A DNA stretch of 36,875 bases from Ardenticatenia bacterium (GCA_003130875.1 QEXY01000143.1:82338-119212), one strand, 5' to 3'; numbered from the stretch's first letter, positions 22,050 to 36,875 are shown. A program made the numbers and translations. The notes: a model not told the origin generated them from the sequence alone.

Positions 22050-22078
22050 TTGACAGATGACAAACTGTCGATTATCAT
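22050..22078 (+). promoter_or_regulatory. Promoter of the fluoride-riboswitch operon
   Basis: A perfect TTGACA (22050-22055), 17 bp, TATCAT (22073-22078). Transcription would begin a few bases before the aptamer. The right-hand copy of the MITE target duplication overlaps the first two bases of the -35, so the element sits directly against this promoter. Confidence 0.7.
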
Positions 22079-22089
22079 GGAGCGTATAC

Positions 22090-22149
22090 AAGCGATGAGG
22101 CTCGCTTGGGTGTAAGCAAAACCGCCGGATGTCCGGCTGATAGCCTCTG
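22090..22149 (+). promoter_or_regulatory. Fluoride (crcB-type) riboswitch aptamer
   Basis: The sequence fits the fluoride aptamer in order. Stem one is AAGCG/CGCTT enclosing ATGAGGCT. A joining region ending AAAACC follows. The second stem is GCCGG/CCGGC with a four-base loop. The conserved CTGATAGCCTCT comes last, in which AGCCTC pairs with GAGGCT of the first loop as the pseudoknot. The joiner after stem one is longer than in well-studied examples. Fluoride binding normally turns expression on. The downstream antiporter gene matches known fluoride-switch cargo. Confidence 0.9.
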
Positions 22150-22185
22150 TCTGTGACGAAATCGCGGGCAGAGGCTTCTTTGTTT
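22142..22185 (+). terminator. Intrinsic terminator of the fluoride riboswitch (expression platform)
   Basis: A 15-bp hairpin (with a few G-U pairs) runs from AGCCTCTG at 22142 to CAGAGGCT ending 22176, with a CGAAA loop, followed by TTCTTTGTTT. Its 5' arm reuses the AGCCTC pseudoknot strand of the aptamer, so ligand-bound aptamer and terminator exclude one another. Fluoride should therefore allow read-through. Confidence 0.88.
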
Positions 22186-22222
22186 GGGCAGGCGAAAGGA
22201 CATATCAAAAAGCTATAACCAG

Positions 22223-22651
22223 ATGATCACCTATTACTGCCCGTCATGCTGGAGCACCGTCGTCGCGAATGCGGAGACATGCCCCACGTGCGGAGCGCGC
22301 ATCCAGGATGGCCCGGCGGACATCGTTGAGAAATATATTGCGGCATTGCGCCACCCTGAACCGATGACCCGCCTGCGCGCTGCCTGGATGTTAGGGCGCA
22401 TGCGTGCGGAACGCGCGGTGCCAGCGCTGGTACAGCTGGTGACAACGCGCCATGCGAATGACCCGTATGTGATCTCTGCAGCCGCAAAGAGCTTGGGATT
22501 GATCGGCAGCCGGGACGCAGTGCCGTGCCTGATCGAGCTGCTGCGGGATCCAAGCGCCTCGTTTATGGCTCGCGCAGAAGCTGCTGAGGCGCTGAAACGC
22601 ATCGGGGGTGATGAAGCGCTAGCCGCGCTGACCGACATCCATCATCGCTGA
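22223..22651 (+). CDS. Zinc-ribbon plus HEAT-repeat protein
   Basis: A 142-aa protein, first gene after the fluoride riboswitch. Residues 6-23 form a zinc ribbon, with CPSC (Cys6, Cys9) and CPTC (Cys20, Cys23). From about residue 35 there are three or so HEAT/PBS-lyase-type helical repeats, visible as repeated LRAAWMLGRM, AVPALVQL, VISAAAKSLGLIG, AVPCLIELLRD and ARAEAAEALKRIG. Such repeats act as protein-binding scaffolds; no enzyme activity is suggested. ATG 22223 is chosen, though the clear GAAAGGA is about 22 nt upstream; an in-frame TTG at 22184 lies inside the terminator U-tract and is unlikely. The antiporter gene follows after 82 nt. Its role in fluoride response is unknown. Confidence 0.8.
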   Translation: MITYYCPSCWSTVVANAETCPTCGARIQDGPADIVEKYIAALRHPEPMTRLRAAWMLGRMRAERAVPALVQLVTTRHANDPYVISAAAKSLGLIGSRDAVPCLIELLRDPSASFMARAEAAEALKRIGGDEALAALTDIHHR

Positions 22652-22733
22652 GGTGCAGCACAACACAGCACAGGATGGAGCTTCTACATATACAATGCGT
22701 GCTATAGCGGGATAGAAGGGGAACCAGAGAGAT

Positions 22734-23867
22734 ATGGAGAATCTCACCATCGCAGCCATCGCTGGGGCACTGATCCTTTTTGCCAGTATCCTATCCGCCG
22801 AGCTGGGGTTATCGGTCGCCATCGTCGAGATCCTTGCGGGCGTGATCGCCGGCAATTTCTTGGGCTTGCACACAACCCCTTGGATCGACTTCCTGGCGGG
22901 GTTCGCCGGCATCGTGCTGACGTTTCTCGCCGGAACGGAGGTGGATTCCGACCTGTTGCGCGAAAAGTGGAAGGAGAGCCTGTTGATTGGGGGATTTTCC
23001 TTCCTGGCGCCGTTTCTGGTCTGCATGGCTTTCGCCGCATGGGTGCTGCGCTGGAGTTCCCCTGCCGCTTCGATCGCCGGCGTGGCACTTTCCACCACCT
23101 CGCTGGCGGTGGTCTACGCCGTGCTGGTGGAAACCGGCCTGACGGAAACGCGCATCGGCAAGCTCATTATGGCTTCAACGTTTGTGACAGACTTTGGCAC
23201 GGCGATGGCTCTCACCCTCTTGTTCATCCATCCGGGGCCTCTGTTGGCCGTGTTTGTGGTGGTCTCGGCAGCGGTGATCATCTTGGTATATCGCGTGTCA
23301 CCACAGTTCTTCCGGCGCTACGGCGACCGGGTCACCGAGCCCGAGATCAAGCTTATCTTCCTCGCCCTGTTTGTGATGATGCTGGTGGCCGAACTGGGAC
23401 AAAGCCACGCAGTGCTGCCGGCGTTTATCTTCGGCCTGGTGATGGCGCAATTCCTGGCCACACATCGCAATCAGCTGCGCCGGCTGCGCGTGGTCGCCTT
23501 TGCCCTCCTGACCCCGTTCTTCTTCCTCAAGTCGGGCATGAACGTTTCCCTTCCGGCAGTGGTGGCTAACCTGGGCTGGCTGGCGATCTTCCTCAGCTTA
23601 AAGTTGTTAGCGAAGTTTATCGGGGTATATCCTCTGGCGCGCCGTTATGTCCAACGCCACGCCTGGTACACCACCTTGCTGATGAGCACAGGGCTGACCT
23701 TCGGCACGATATCGTCGCTCTACGGCCTGAATACAGGTATTTTGGACCAGGCGCAGTTTTCGGTGTTGGTGACAACGGTCATCGCGACCGCAGTGGTCCC
23801 CACCTTCTTTGCACAACGTTTCTTCTCCCCCAGTGTGGAGCTGGAAAAGGAGGTCGAGAGTGTATAA
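22734..23867 (+). CDS. Cation:proton antiporter (CPA2/Kef-NapA-like)
   Basis: A 377-aa polytopic membrane protein with about 12 hydrophobic segments filling the chain, the usual size of the membrane domain of the monovalent cation:proton antiporter family. It opens with AELGLSVAIVEILAGVIAGN, then GIVLTFLAGTEVD near 60-70, both Kef/NapA-like. The ion-binding pair at the half-helix is Thr152-Asp153 (FVTDFGTAMAL), unlike the Asp-Asp of NapA or Gln-Asp of Kef. It has no C-terminal RCK/TrkA-N domain. AGAGAG lies just before the ATG. Its stop overlaps the next gene by 8 nt. Sodium/proton antiporters are among known fluoride-riboswitch targets, so a role in ion or pH balance during fluoride stress is plausible. 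Confidence 0.88.
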   Translation: MENLTIAAIAGALILFASILSAELGLSVAIVEILAGVIAGNFLGLHTTPWIDFLAGFAGIVLTFLAGTEVDSDLLREKWKESLLIGGFSFLAPFLVCMAFAAWVLRWSSPAASIAGVALSTTSLAVVYAVLVETGLTETRIGKLIMASTFVTDFGTAMALTLLFIHPGPLLAVFVVVSAAVIILVYRVSPQFFRRYGDRVTEPEIKLIFLALFVMMLVAELGQSHAVLPAFIFGLVMAQFLATHRNQLRRLRVVAFALLTPFFFLKSGMNVSLPAVVANLGWLAIFLSLKLLAKFIGVYPLARRYVQRHAWYTTLLMSTGLTFGTISSLYGLNTGILDQAQFSVLVTTVIATAVVPTFFAQRFFSPSVELEKEVESV

Positions 23868-25194
23868 ACATATCATGGTCGCTATGGACGGCGGAGCTGG
23901 CTCGGAACAGGCGCTCAAACAGGCCATTGCGCTGGCACGTGCATTGGGCGCATCGCTCACAGTGATCTCGGTGATCGAAAAGCTGCCCGCCTATGCCGCT
24001 TCAATGGGCGAGGTGGAGGAGACGCGAGGCGAGATCGAGAAGTTCTTTGTTAATCTCCATGCCAATGCGGCGAAGATCGCTCAGGCAGCTGGAGTGAACA
24101 TGAAGTCAGTCATCCGCGTGGGCAATGTAGCTCAAGCGATCATCCGCCACGCCGAGGAGACCGGCGCACATTTGATCGTAGTGGGAGCCGGTGCAGGGCA
24201 AGGACTGGGAGGTACGGCGGATAAGATCACAGAGAACGCTCCATGTTCGGTGCTCGTCGCCCGTGTCAACCTGTCGGCGGTCAAGGTGAAGGATGCGATG
24301 ACGCGGGCGGTGACTTCGATTGCACCAGACATGCCTCTCAATGCGCTGCTGCAGCTGCTGGTCGAGAAGCAACTCAAGGCGGTGCCCGTCGTAGACGGCG
24401 GTCACATCGTCGGGATTATCACCGGAGGAGACCTGCTGGCACGTGCAGGGATGGAGCTGCGCTTGAGCTTACAACGGACACTGCCACCGCATATCCTCTC
24501 GCGCCAGATTCAGAAGCTGGCCGAAGAGGGCAAGACCGCCCGCGATATCATGACCTCACCAGTGATCACCATCGGCGAGGACGAACCCGTCCTACAAGCC
24601 GCTGCGTTGATGTCACAAAAGAATATCAAACGTCTGCCGGTGGTGAACCAGCAGGGCGAGCTGGTAGGGATCATCAGCCGGCTGGACATCATGGCCATGG
24701 TCGCAGCGAGTGGCGTCACGACGGAGATGTTGCCCACCATAACCGGCGGCGCGGCGCGCGTCGCGGGAGACATTATGTTCCGCGATGTCCCGACCGTCAT
24801 GCCTGACACGAACCTGAACGAGGTGGTCAACAAGATTCTCTCGACGCCGCTGCGACGGGTGGTGGTGACCGATGAGCGGAGACACGTCATGGGAATCATC
24901 GTGGACACGCAGCTGGTCAAAGCTGGCTTGCACGACAGGCGACCAGGGCTACAGAACATCCTCGCCCGTCTGGTGCATGCCCCAATTGACCCGCTGAGCT
25001 TGGAGGGAACCGCCCGCGATGTGATGAACAAAGAGGTGTTCTCCGTGCGACCGGATACGCCACTCGCTGAGGTGATCCAGATCATGGTCGAAAAACGCAT
25101 CAAGCGCCTGGTGGTGACTGATGAGGAAAGGCGGCTGCTTGGGATGGTCAGCCGCGAGAGCATCCTGAATGTGCTGGCTGAGAGCAAGCCATAA
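23860..25194 (+). CDS. Universal-stress-protein plus multi-CBS-domain protein
   Basis: A 444-aa soluble protein. Residues 1-140 are a USP domain (YKHIMVAMDGG start; VVGAGAGQGLGGTADKITENAPCSVLVAR end), with a shortened form of the nucleotide-binding G-x2-G-x9-G loop. Then come two CBS pairs: VKDAMTRAVTSIAPDMPL, ARDIMTSPVITIGEDEP, AGDIMFRDVPTVMPDTN and ARDVMNKEVFSVRPDTP begin the four repeats. CBS pairs usually bind adenine nucleotides. The GTG start overlaps the antiporter stop by 8 nt and has AGGAGG 7 nt upstream, so the two are translationally coupled. It is probably a cytoplasmic nucleotide-sensing regulator of the antiporter; that is inference from coupling. Confidence 0.88.
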   Translation: MYKHIMVAMDGGAGSEQALKQAIALARALGASLTVISVIEKLPAYAASMGEVEETRGEIEKFFVNLHANAAKIAQAAGVNMKSVIRVGNVAQAIIRHAEETGAHLIVVGAGAGQGLGGTADKITENAPCSVLVARVNLSAVKVKDAMTRAVTSIAPDMPLNALLQLLVEKQLKAVPVVDGGHIVGIITGGDLLARAGMELRLSLQRTLPPHILSRQIQKLAEEGKTARDIMTSPVITIGEDEPVLQAAALMSQKNIKRLPVVNQQGELVGIISRLDIMAMVAASGVTTEMLPTITGGAARVAGDIMFRDVPTVMPDTNLNEVVNKILSTPLRRVVVTDERRHVMGIIVDTQLVKAGLHDRRPGLQNILARLVHAPIDPLSLEGTARDVMNKEVFSVRPDTPLAEVIQIMVEKRIKRLVVTDEERRLLGMVSRESILNVLAESKP

Positions 25195-25270: not shown

Positions 25271-26005
25271 ATGGGTCGCACCATGAGCTTCTATGATCTG
25301 CGCGATGCGATGGCATTGCCGGGCTGCCCGGTGTGCCGTCTGAAGGCGAACGCCGTGCGCCGGCATCTGGACAACCTGCTGTGGGAAAGCGTCAACGACG
25401 CCGGCGTGCGCCGGGAGATCCGCAACGCACGCGGCTTCTGCCAGCAACATGCCTGGCAGTTGATAGAAGGTGGCAGTTCCCTCGGCGTGGTGATCATCAT
25501 GCACGACGTGATGCAGCATGTATTGCAGCTGCTGGAAACCGCCGAGTTTCAGCCGCCTGCCCCCACCCTGCGCCAGCGTGCCCGCAGTGCACTTGATCCT
25601 TCCCGCGCGGCGCCAGCCAATGCCGGATTGCTCGCCAAGCTGCGCCCCCAGGCGCCGTGTCCGGTTTGCGTCCACGCCGAGACAACCGAACGGGTGCTGA
25701 TCAGCACACTGGTGCAGGAGCTGCTCGGCGAGGACGGCCTGTTGCCCGCCCTGCGCGCTTCGGAAGGGTTGTGTTTGCTCCACCTGCGGCAGGCATTGGC
25801 ACAGACCCCCAACGCCGAGGTCTTCGACGCATTGGTCGGTGTCCAACGGGAGATTTGGCGCCGCCTGACCGACCAGCTCGCCGAGCTCATCCGCAAAGAG
25901 GACTATCGCTTCCGCCACGAGGCACGTGGCGAGGAGAAGGGCGCTTCCCTGCGCGCCCTGGCAGTCCTCTCCGGGCCACGCATCATCACCTCGGACGCGG
26001 GATAG
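25271..26005 (+). CDS. DUF6062-family protein, first copy
   Basis: A 244-aa soluble protein of a family I recognise only as DUF6062. It is built from two halves with the same metal-site pattern: Cys19, Cys22, Cys57, His60 (GCPVC and GFCQQHAW), then Cys130, Cys133, Cys168, His171 (CPVC and GLCLLHLRQA). In both, the gap from the second to third Cys is 34 residues. The C-terminus has IRKEDYRF, shared with the next gene. Zinc or iron binding is likely; function is unknown. ATG 25271 has GAGGAG 8 nt upstream and aligns with the paralogue's start. It lies 76 nt after the USP-CBS gene. Confidence 0.8.
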   Translation: MGRTMSFYDLRDAMALPGCPVCRLKANAVRRHLDNLLWESVNDAGVRREIRNARGFCQQHAWQLIEGGSSLGVVIIMHDVMQHVLQLLETAEFQPPAPTLRQRARSALDPSRAAPANAGLLAKLRPQAPCPVCVHAETTERVLISTLVQELLGEDGLLPALRASEGLCLLHLRQALAQTPNAEVFDALVGVQREIWRRLTDQLAELIRKEDYRFRHEARGEEKGASLRALAVLSGPRIITSDAG

Positions 26006-26046: not shown

Positions 26047-26832
26047 ATGAGTCGCCATATCGCCTTCTATGAGCTGCGCGATGCGCTAGCTCAGCCGGGC
26101 TGTTCGCTGTGCCGTCTGGAAGCACGCGTGGCCGAGCGTTATCTGGATTTTCTCTTGTGGGAGCGAGTCAATGACCCCGACCTGCGGCAGAATCTGCGCC
26201 GGGCAAGAGGCTTCTGCCGCGAGCATGCCTGGATGCTGGTGCGACCGGGAGCTTCTTTGAGCATCGCGGTCATGCTGCACGATGTGCTACAAGATGTGCT
26301 CCAATCGCTCAACGGTGCGGTGATACAGCCGACACAGGAGACGCGCCGCCCATTGGAACGGCTGCGCACCACAATCGCACCAGCACCCCCACCCGCCGTG
26401 GCCGATATCGTCGCCGCGCTCGAACCTCAGGGTGAACAAATTTGCCCGGCGTGTGCGCAGTGTCGTGTGATGGAAGAAGTGTACCTGGATGTGTTGTTGG
26501 ATAGCCTGCCGGAGGCGGGAGGCTTGCTGGAAGCTTACCAATCCTCCGACGGCCTGTGTCTGCCCCATTTTCGCCGGGCGGTGCAACGTGTGCGCACCCA
26601 GCGTGTGTTGGATGTGCTGCTACACGCTCAGCGCACCGTGTGGGAACGACTCAGCCATCAGCTGGGAGAAGTGATCCGCAAGAATGATTATCGTTTTCAC
26701 GACGAACCATGGGGCGAGGAAGCGGATGCGTGGTTGCGCGTCATCGAAGCACTGGTCGGTGCAGCGCCCACTCAACTGGAAGTACCTGGACGTGCGCGAG
26801 GAGAGGATGGATATGAACGTACCGGAAGATGA
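26047..26832 (+). CDS. DUF6062-family protein, second copy
   Basis: A 261-aa paralogue of the preceding gene: MSRHIAFYELRDAL against MGRTMSFYDLRDAM, and the same first four ligands (Cys19, Cys22, Cys57, His60). The second set is Cys133, Cys136, Cys171, His174, again 34 residues between the inner Cys pair, with an extra Cys139. Near the end IRKNDYRFHDEPWGEE matches the sister protein. The open frame extends far upstream inside the first copy, but AGGAGG 7 nt before ATG 26047 and the alignment fix the start. The tail overlaps the next gene by 20 nt. A recent-looking tandem duplication; its job is unknown. Confidence 0.82.
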   Translation: MSRHIAFYELRDALAQPGCSLCRLEARVAERYLDFLLWERVNDPDLRQNLRRARGFCREHAWMLVRPGASLSIAVMLHDVLQDVLQSLNGAVIQPTQETRRPLERLRTTIAPAPPPAVADIVAALEPQGEQICPACAQCRVMEEVYLDVLLDSLPEAGGLLEAYQSSDGLCLPHFRRAVQRVRTQRVLDVLLHAQRTVWERLSHQLGEVIRKNDYRFHDEPWGEEADAWLRVIEALVGAAPTQLEVPGRARGEDGYERTGR

Positions 26833-27439
26833 GCCGGCAACGCCGAGCAGTGCCGACTTTGAACAGCGCTTCTTTGCTGGAGCTGAGATCGTTACCTTGC
26901 AGATTGAGGTTCTCAAGGAAACCTATGATGAAATGCTGAAAGTCATCCAGCGCAACGGATGGGAGCTTGAAGAAGGCCTGCGCATCCTCCTCACCTTGGG
27001 ATCAGGATATGCACAAGGGCGCTATCTCTTGCAGGCGGACACGGAGCAACAACATCGCCTGGCAGAGCGTCTGGCCGATCTCGAGTCGGTGGCTGCTGTC
27101 ATGAAGTTCCGCACCTACACGTTCATGCGCGATAATCAAGTGCTGGAAATGCGTTCCGCCGCGCTCCAGAACGCCGTGGTCGGACTGGAGGCGGTGGTGC
27201 AGCGTCTCCGCAGCGAGCGCGACGCATTATGTGCCGAGCTGGAAAAGTTGCGCGCGGAGGTGACACGATTGCAGCACAGTGCTGGCAACAGCGCAACACT
27301 TATGACCTCCGCATCCCCGCCGGAAGTGCCGGCTCCCCCCGGAAATAAGCTCCTTTATGTCCTTCACTTGCTCACCTGTGGGCTTCAGAGAGGAAACTCA
27401 GGATGCAGGAGGTCTGGATGGTGGAGAGCTAGGAGTTAG
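26813..27439 (+). CDS. Coiled-coil protein with anomalous C-terminal tail
   Basis: About 208 aa. No known family is recognised. A short acidic start is followed by a helical region (ETYDEMLKVIQRNGWELEEGLRILLTLG) and a long heptad-like coiled coil at about 75-160 rich in Glu, Leu and Arg. After about residue 180 the tail turns into a Cys/Gly/Arg/Trp-rich stretch that overlaps, in another frame, a dead transposase. The native C-terminus has therefore probably been lost or replaced. ATG 26813 gives a 6-nt spacing from GAGGAGAGG; ATG 26807 would abut it. The start overlaps the DUF6062 stop, so the three genes are co-translated. Confidence 0.6.
   Translation: MNVPEDEPATPSSADFEQRFFAGAEIVTLQIEVLKETYDEMLKVIQRNGWELEEGLRILLTLGSGYAQGRYLLQADTEQQHRLAERLADLESVAAVMKFRTYTFMRDNQVLEMRSAALQNAVVGLEAVVQRLRSERDALCAELEKLRAEVTRLQHSAGNSATLMTSASPPEVPAPPGNKLLYVLHLLTCGLQRGNSGCRRSGWWRARS

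Positions 27440-35927: not shown

Positions 35928-36875
<948 letters not shown>

Follow-up and report, generated by a model that had tools for sequence, protein, structure and literature searches.

Fluoride tolerance is commonly ascribed to two exporter families, Fluc/CrcB and CLC-F. In two accounts of the genes under fluoride riboswitches (RF01734, the crcB motif), Na+/H+ antiporters are the next-most-common class after the exporters (PMC11139923, citing Baker 2012) and K+ transport is already among the associations (PMC2864571). In Enterobacter cloacae, the multi-gene FRM operon stands under a fluoride riboswitch and includes uspA, and all six of its genes are reported to contribute to resistance (PMC5533749). 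Here we describe an operon in a 36,875-nucleotide stretch of Ardenticatenia bacterium (GCA_003130875.1 QEXY01000143.1:82338-119212, hereafter the window) in which a fluoride riboswitch precedes genes for a Zn-ribbon/HEAT-repeat protein, a CPA2 antiporter, a protein joining a universal stress protein (USP) domain to CBS domains, and two DUF6062 proteins; every feature of the window reported below lies on the plus strand. A fluoride-activated transcriptional riboswitch very probably controls this unit as a fluoride-response operon with the antiporter at its core. The general association of such riboswitches with antiporters is already published and is confirmed here with a sharper boundary, and the gene combination under this known switch is new.

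Judged on its sequence, the fluoride riboswitch in the window is genuine, and it is predicted to bind and respond to fluoride. An earlier first-pass annotation had proposed a promoter, a fluoride aptamer and a terminator ahead of the genes, and all three are borne out. The sigma-70-like promoter TTGACA-N17-TATCAT (22050..22078) agrees with 11 of 12 consensus positions, with one such promoter found against 0.3 expected in shuffled sequences. The aptamer (22082..22156) matches RF01734 over its full length (1-64 of 64; 32.6 bits, E 2.1e-7) when Rfam is scanned at an E-value threshold, and is the sole RF01734 match in the host genome. The GAUG and ACCGCC/CUGAU core, two hairpins and the pseudoknot are all present, with P1 at 22091-22094/22103-22106, P3 at 22124-22127/22134-22137 and the pseudoknot at 22097-22101/22143-22147, each covarying in 26 relatives. 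The match falls 1.4 bits short of the RF01734 gathering cut-off of 34 bits, which is a detection threshold and no structural feature. Thus the covariance-model search that had been suggested as a check on 22090-22149 gives a match at the E-value threshold and none at the Rfam cut-off, where the stated refuting outcome would have been reached, real though the aptamer is. A scan of the whole window at gathering thresholds reported the 16S ribosomal RNA gene alone and missed the aptamer, so absence at that threshold is no evidence of absence here. The low score is due to an insert of ~10 nucleotides between P1 and the AACCGCC stretch, with the rest of the core matching; the insert is short and folds no better than shuffles. 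With a model (R1) built from alignment A3 of 26 aptamers from the host's class, none of them driving this antiporter, the element is found at 22089-22151 with 47 bits (E 1.2e-13), and the pairing in that alignment covaries in all three helices (54 double changes vs 16 in shuffles).

The intrinsic terminator (22142..22186) consists of a 15-bp stem (22142-22176) and a U-rich tail, and the leader RNA as a whole folds much better than shuffles (z -5.2). The 5′ arm of the terminator, AGCCUC, includes the 3′ strand of the pseudoknot, whose partner is GAGGC at 22097-22101. Pseudoknot and terminator are therefore mutually exclusive, which is the usual design of a transcriptional ON switch. The same overlap, in different yet matching sequence, occurs in the sister species (genome G015, locus L182, titled uncultured Ardenticatenia bacterium) and at the distant loci L186, L188, L190, L194, L197 and L199. 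Without fluoride, the nascent RNA would fold the 15-bp terminator and transcription would halt ahead of the Zn-ribbon/HEAT gene. When fluoride is bound, the pseudoknot would sequester the 5′ arm of the terminator, letting RNA polymerase read through into the five genes, from HEAT through antiporter and USP-CBS to the DUF6062 pair. The antiporter most likely would then relieve fluoride stress at the membrane, and the USP-CBS protein, translationally overlapped with it, would be its likely regulatory partner.

The linkage between riboswitch and antiporter extends well beyond the window. Among 249 genomes of the host's class, orthologs of the antiporter occur in only seven (47-93% identity, the next match being <32%), and a fluoride aptamer lies upstream on the same strand at 7/7 of them, seen in genome G031 by R1 alone. 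An alignment scan of one genome per species across 84,980 species gave 577 relatives, and the 80 best of these were taken further; these loci were chosen by protein only, without regard to riboswitches, and include Chloroflexota, Rokubacteria, Actinobacteria, Acidobacteria, Bacillota, Deltaproteobacteria, Planctomycetes, Melainabacteria and archaea. R1 found a same-strand upstream aptamer at 76 of the 80, within 300 bp at 70. As a control, the same model was run on class loci of 23 CPA2 paralogs, 12 CLC genes and 12 CrcB genes, and none of the 47 had an aptamer at E <0.05. With this linkage set against none at the paralogs, the antiporter branch looks dedicated to fluoride. The first-pass annotation had suggested that fluoride tolerance in this lineage may be run by the antiporter; the gene is indeed behind a riboswitch and is the only transporter in the operon, but the arrangement is not peculiar to the lineage, being spread across phyla and previously published as an association (PMC11139923, PMC2864571).

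The antiporter (22734..23867, 377 residues) is placed in CPA2 near NapA by sequence and by predicted structure. It has the Na_H_Exchanger domain (PF00999, 6e-39), a modelled NapA fold (template-modelling score 0.79 to inward-facing NapA) and the essential aspartate that characterize CPA2, a group that exchanges Na+ or K+ for H+, and such exchange is one candidate activity here. When 42 members of the subfamily are aligned, the crossover-helix aspartate is kept (D153 in 41, glutamate in one; aligned with NapA D157) and K294, aligned with NapA K305, is invariant. The Asp-Asp pair of NapA is replaced by Thr152-Asp153, positions that are mostly Ala-Asp or Asp-Asp in the 23 CPA2 paralogs; K290 is likewise invariant in the subfamily and is a lysine in 0/23 paralogs. 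The motif MSTGLTFGT also marks the subfamily.

The first-pass annotation had remarked that no CrcB or CLC-F gene is in the unit, which is correct and applies more widely: neither CrcB/Fluc (PF02537) nor CLC (PF00654) was found in the operon or in the host genome, which is 95.9% complete, with control matches in 10/14 and 12/14 genomes, respectively. Across the 249 class genomes, RF01734 occurs in 51, CrcB in 90 and CLC in 115. In 50 genomes that carry the antiporter, a CrcB match was found in seven and any CLC in 10, and 34 have neither, compared with 92 of the 249 class genomes (p 7e-5). The cultured carrier Thermosyntropha lipolytica DSM 11003 (L194) also possesses a CrcB gene. This lack of exporters is the pattern expected of a replacement exporter and is suggestive; lineage and draft assemblies confound it, and for that reason it is not taken as proof. 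Since the subfamily stands nearly always behind fluoride switches and the host genome is without both exporters, the antiporter makes a good candidate for a fluoride exporter that has gone unrecognised. Direct fluoride export by the subfamily is plausible, and export in exchange for protons is a candidate activity whose odds we place just below even. In its widest form, this reading is that the riboswitch-linked CPA2 subfamily, with its T-D pair, K290, K294 and MSTGLTFGT, is a third prokaryotic exporter family that replaces Fluc/CLC-F in most carriers, in bacteria and archaea and in this Chloroflexota member; we give this a probability of about 0.4.

Several observations weigh against this account of the operon and its antiporter. 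Both known exporters are lacking from 37% of class genomes (92/249) anyway, and 14 riboswitch genomes are without Fluc, CLC and this antiporter; thus fluoride may be handled otherwise. Within the class, neither exporter is found in 5/7 carriers vs 87/242 other genomes (p 0.10), and in Rokubacteria, where CrcB is present in 29/95 genomes and 0/5 carriers, the difference is not significant. Riboswitch-linked Na+/H+ antiporters have been interpreted in terms of pH homeostasis (PMC11139923), and one fluoride riboswitch of C. difficile co-regulates an NhaP-type antiporter with a CLC (PMC11477304). Both publications are in line with the alternative that survives best, namely that the antiporter carries no fluoride and serves as an accessory Na+(K+)/H+ exchanger, restoring cytoplasmic pH and ion balance upon dissociation of hydrogen fluoride (HF) inside the cell. 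An ordinary CPA2 fold with the equivalents of NapA D157 and K305 kept is also what such an exchanger would have, and we regard this explanation as a serious one that falls somewhat short of probable. The corresponding activity, cation/proton exchange offsetting the acid load of entering HF, is proposed tentatively. An accessory role sits less easily with an aptamer at 76/80 loci of the branch, usually directly ahead of the antiporter gene, when other CPA2 members have none (0/23), with the 34 of 50 carriers in which there is no Fluc or CLC to assist, and with the family-specific T152 and K290, which change the transport core relative to the paralogs.

The operon is larger than first described. 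Three same-strand genes had been reported, two of them overlapping, and these are present as stated. The Zn-ribbon/HEAT gene (22223..22651, 142 residues; HEAT_2 2.6e-22) has a CPSC...CPTC ribbon for which DZR scores below its cut-off (3.7e-4). The antiporter gene overlaps by 8 bases the GTG-started USP-CBS gene (23860..25194, 444 residues), which has one USP domain (Usp 2.4e-26) and four CBS domains (9.4e-57, 4 stretches). The three-gene extent itself does not hold, as two DUF6062 genes (PF19538) had been missed: one at 25271..26005 (244 residues, 4e-22) with two CxxC..CxxH motifs and another at 26047..26832 (261 residues, 3.5e-29), with profile scores of 79.3 and 102.4 bits vs a cut-off of 27. 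No convincing terminator was found between the USP-CBS gene and the two DUF6062 genes. The comparison of gene order in relatives that had been recommended shows the window order kept, with additions, in the sister species, where the aptamer is followed by HEAT, two DUF6062, antiporter, USP-CBS and two further DUF6062 genes. Because these genes share a strand, lack a convincing terminator and keep their order in the sister species, the unit comprises at least five genes. A possible sixth (26813..27439, ~208 residues), whose start overlaps the second DUF6062 gene, may also belong to the operon, and the sister species has a related open reading frame at the corresponding place. At the window end is the 5′ part of the 16S ribosomal RNA gene (35928-36875).

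Any part that the HEAT, USP-CBS and DUF6062 proteins play in the fluoride response is putative and may be protection of fluoride-sensitive targets or regulation, and their linkage differs from gene to gene. The USP-CBS protein, which the first-pass annotation had put forward as a nucleotide-sensing partner that may tune the antiporter, has a USP/CBS counterpart encoded directly 3′ of the antiporter at 17 of the 80 loci, a set extending from Chloroflexota as far as Nitrospirae and Firmicutes. A HEAT scaffold had likewise been put forward as a new component, a putative role; the Zn-ribbon/HEAT gene does recur near aptamers, its relatives having one within 1.5 kb at 13/20 loci (control 0/47), and more of them adjoin DUF6062 genes at a greater distance from an aptamer (L164, L165, L166, L168). 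In the sister species (L032, reverse strand), the Zn-ribbon/HEAT protein and an MFS transporter form an in-frame fusion, encoded by a 593-residue open reading frame directly behind the aptamer, and G184 (L050) and G207 (L052) likewise have MFS genes in their fluoride units. DUF6062 matches adjoin aptamers, or stand a few kb downstream of them, at many loci, and the family recurs at fluoride aptamers also in L116, L120, L125, L139, L164, L166 and L168. Its invariant residues are C19 C22 C57 H60 and C130 C133 C168 H171. The structure model is confident (predicted local distance difference test 92), there was no significant match in the PDB by sequence or by fold, and none of the papers that a literature search listed for DUF6062 names it.

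These recurrences bear on a second alternative, in which the Zn-ribbon/HEAT and DUF6062 proteins provide the protective function and the antiporter and USP-CBS protein are a variable add-on. Both recur beside aptamers in the antiporter-less genomes G010, G013, G023, G043, G078 and G141, some of which are also without Fluc and CLC. Against this, no membrane part is predicted for either protein, DUF6062 occurs in 105 class genomes vs 51 for the aptamer and is common also where no aptamer was detected, and the antiporter occurs across phyla mostly without them (HEAT near it at 4 and DUF6062 at 8 of the 80 loci); we consider this explanation unlikely. That the aptamer match arose by chance, or marks a degenerate riboswitch giving no fluoride response, as its miss at the default threshold and score below the gathering cut-off might suggest, is highly improbable in view of its E values (2.1e-7 with Rfam, 1.2e-13 with R1), its conservation with substitutions in the sister species (G015/L182), the correct geometry of promoter and terminator, and the other insert-bearing class aptamers that likewise score near or below the cut-off.

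Long aptamers are in fact frequent in the class, 25 of 53 sites being >70 nucleotides, and in many of them the insert forms a hairpin of differing sequence (e.g., G134, G194, G078, G115, G047). This extra-stem variant, with its insert between P1 and ACCGCC, was noted at L021, L023, L027, L029, L035 and L045, the corresponding window site being 22107-22119. The aptamers at L162, L164, L165, L166 and L168 were missed by the default Rfam scan and found by R1. With several insert-bearing aptamers near or below the cut-off, the Rfam fluoride model undercounts them. Weak RF01734 matches in G079, G123, G191, G192 and G022, which lack the core or are themselves doubtful, were excluded from the site counts. 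Other genes after class fluoride aptamers include dynamin-like GTPases (L003, L049, L023), MoxR-type AAA ATPases (L035, L028) and, directly behind the aptamer and often as tandem pairs, MutS domain V-like ATPases (L039, L042, L046, L048, L050, L052); a mutS association with the fluoride riboswitch is published (PMC2864571). One genome, G060 (L049, L034, L053), has five fluoride aptamer matches, three of them on one contig. Divergent aptamer pairs on opposite strands, <200 bp apart, were seen at L169 (2484-2535/2580-2632), L164 (9374-9458/9537-9602) and L242 (9678-9727/9849-9906).

Beyond the gene combination, the apparently new elements are the signature of the subfamily (T-D, K290 together with K294), the suggestive absence of exporters from 34/50 carriers, the recurrent Zn-ribbon/HEAT and DUF6062 linkage and the extra-stem aptamer variant. 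If the antiporter moves fluoride, many prokaryotes have proteins mis-annotated as Na+/H+ antiporters. The subfamily would be a third membrane-protein group that is nearly always fluoride-switched, often where neither exporter is found. The operon also points to Zn-ribbon/HEAT and DUF6062, both of them soluble proteins not yet characterised, as testable candidates in fluoride stress.

Compared with the RF01734 regulons described in PMC2864571 and PMC11139923, the locus is alike in its aptamer core, pseudoknot, overlapping terminator and downstream genes of predicted fluoride stress. It differs in the insert of its aptamer and in a unit without CrcB, CLC, enolase or pyrophosphatase, and HEAT and DUF6062 genes are unmentioned in the consulted passages of the two accounts. 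The E. cloacae FRM operon is likewise a multi-gene riboswitch operon with a universal stress protein, and it has crcB, ppaC, eno and gpmA, no CPA2 antiporter and a uspA for which no CBS fusion is described (PMC5533749). The antiporter resembles NapA (CPA2; PDB 4bwz, 5bz2) in its fold, in D153 at the place of D157 and in K294 at that of K305; it is only ~20% identical, with T152 for NapA D156, the extra invariant K290, the MSTGLTFGT motif and the linkage to a fluoride riboswitch. Compared with CLC-F and Fluc/CrcB, neither of which was found in the host genome, the antiporter belongs to an unrelated family, yet it is likewise a riboswitch-linked membrane protein and possibly performs the same task.

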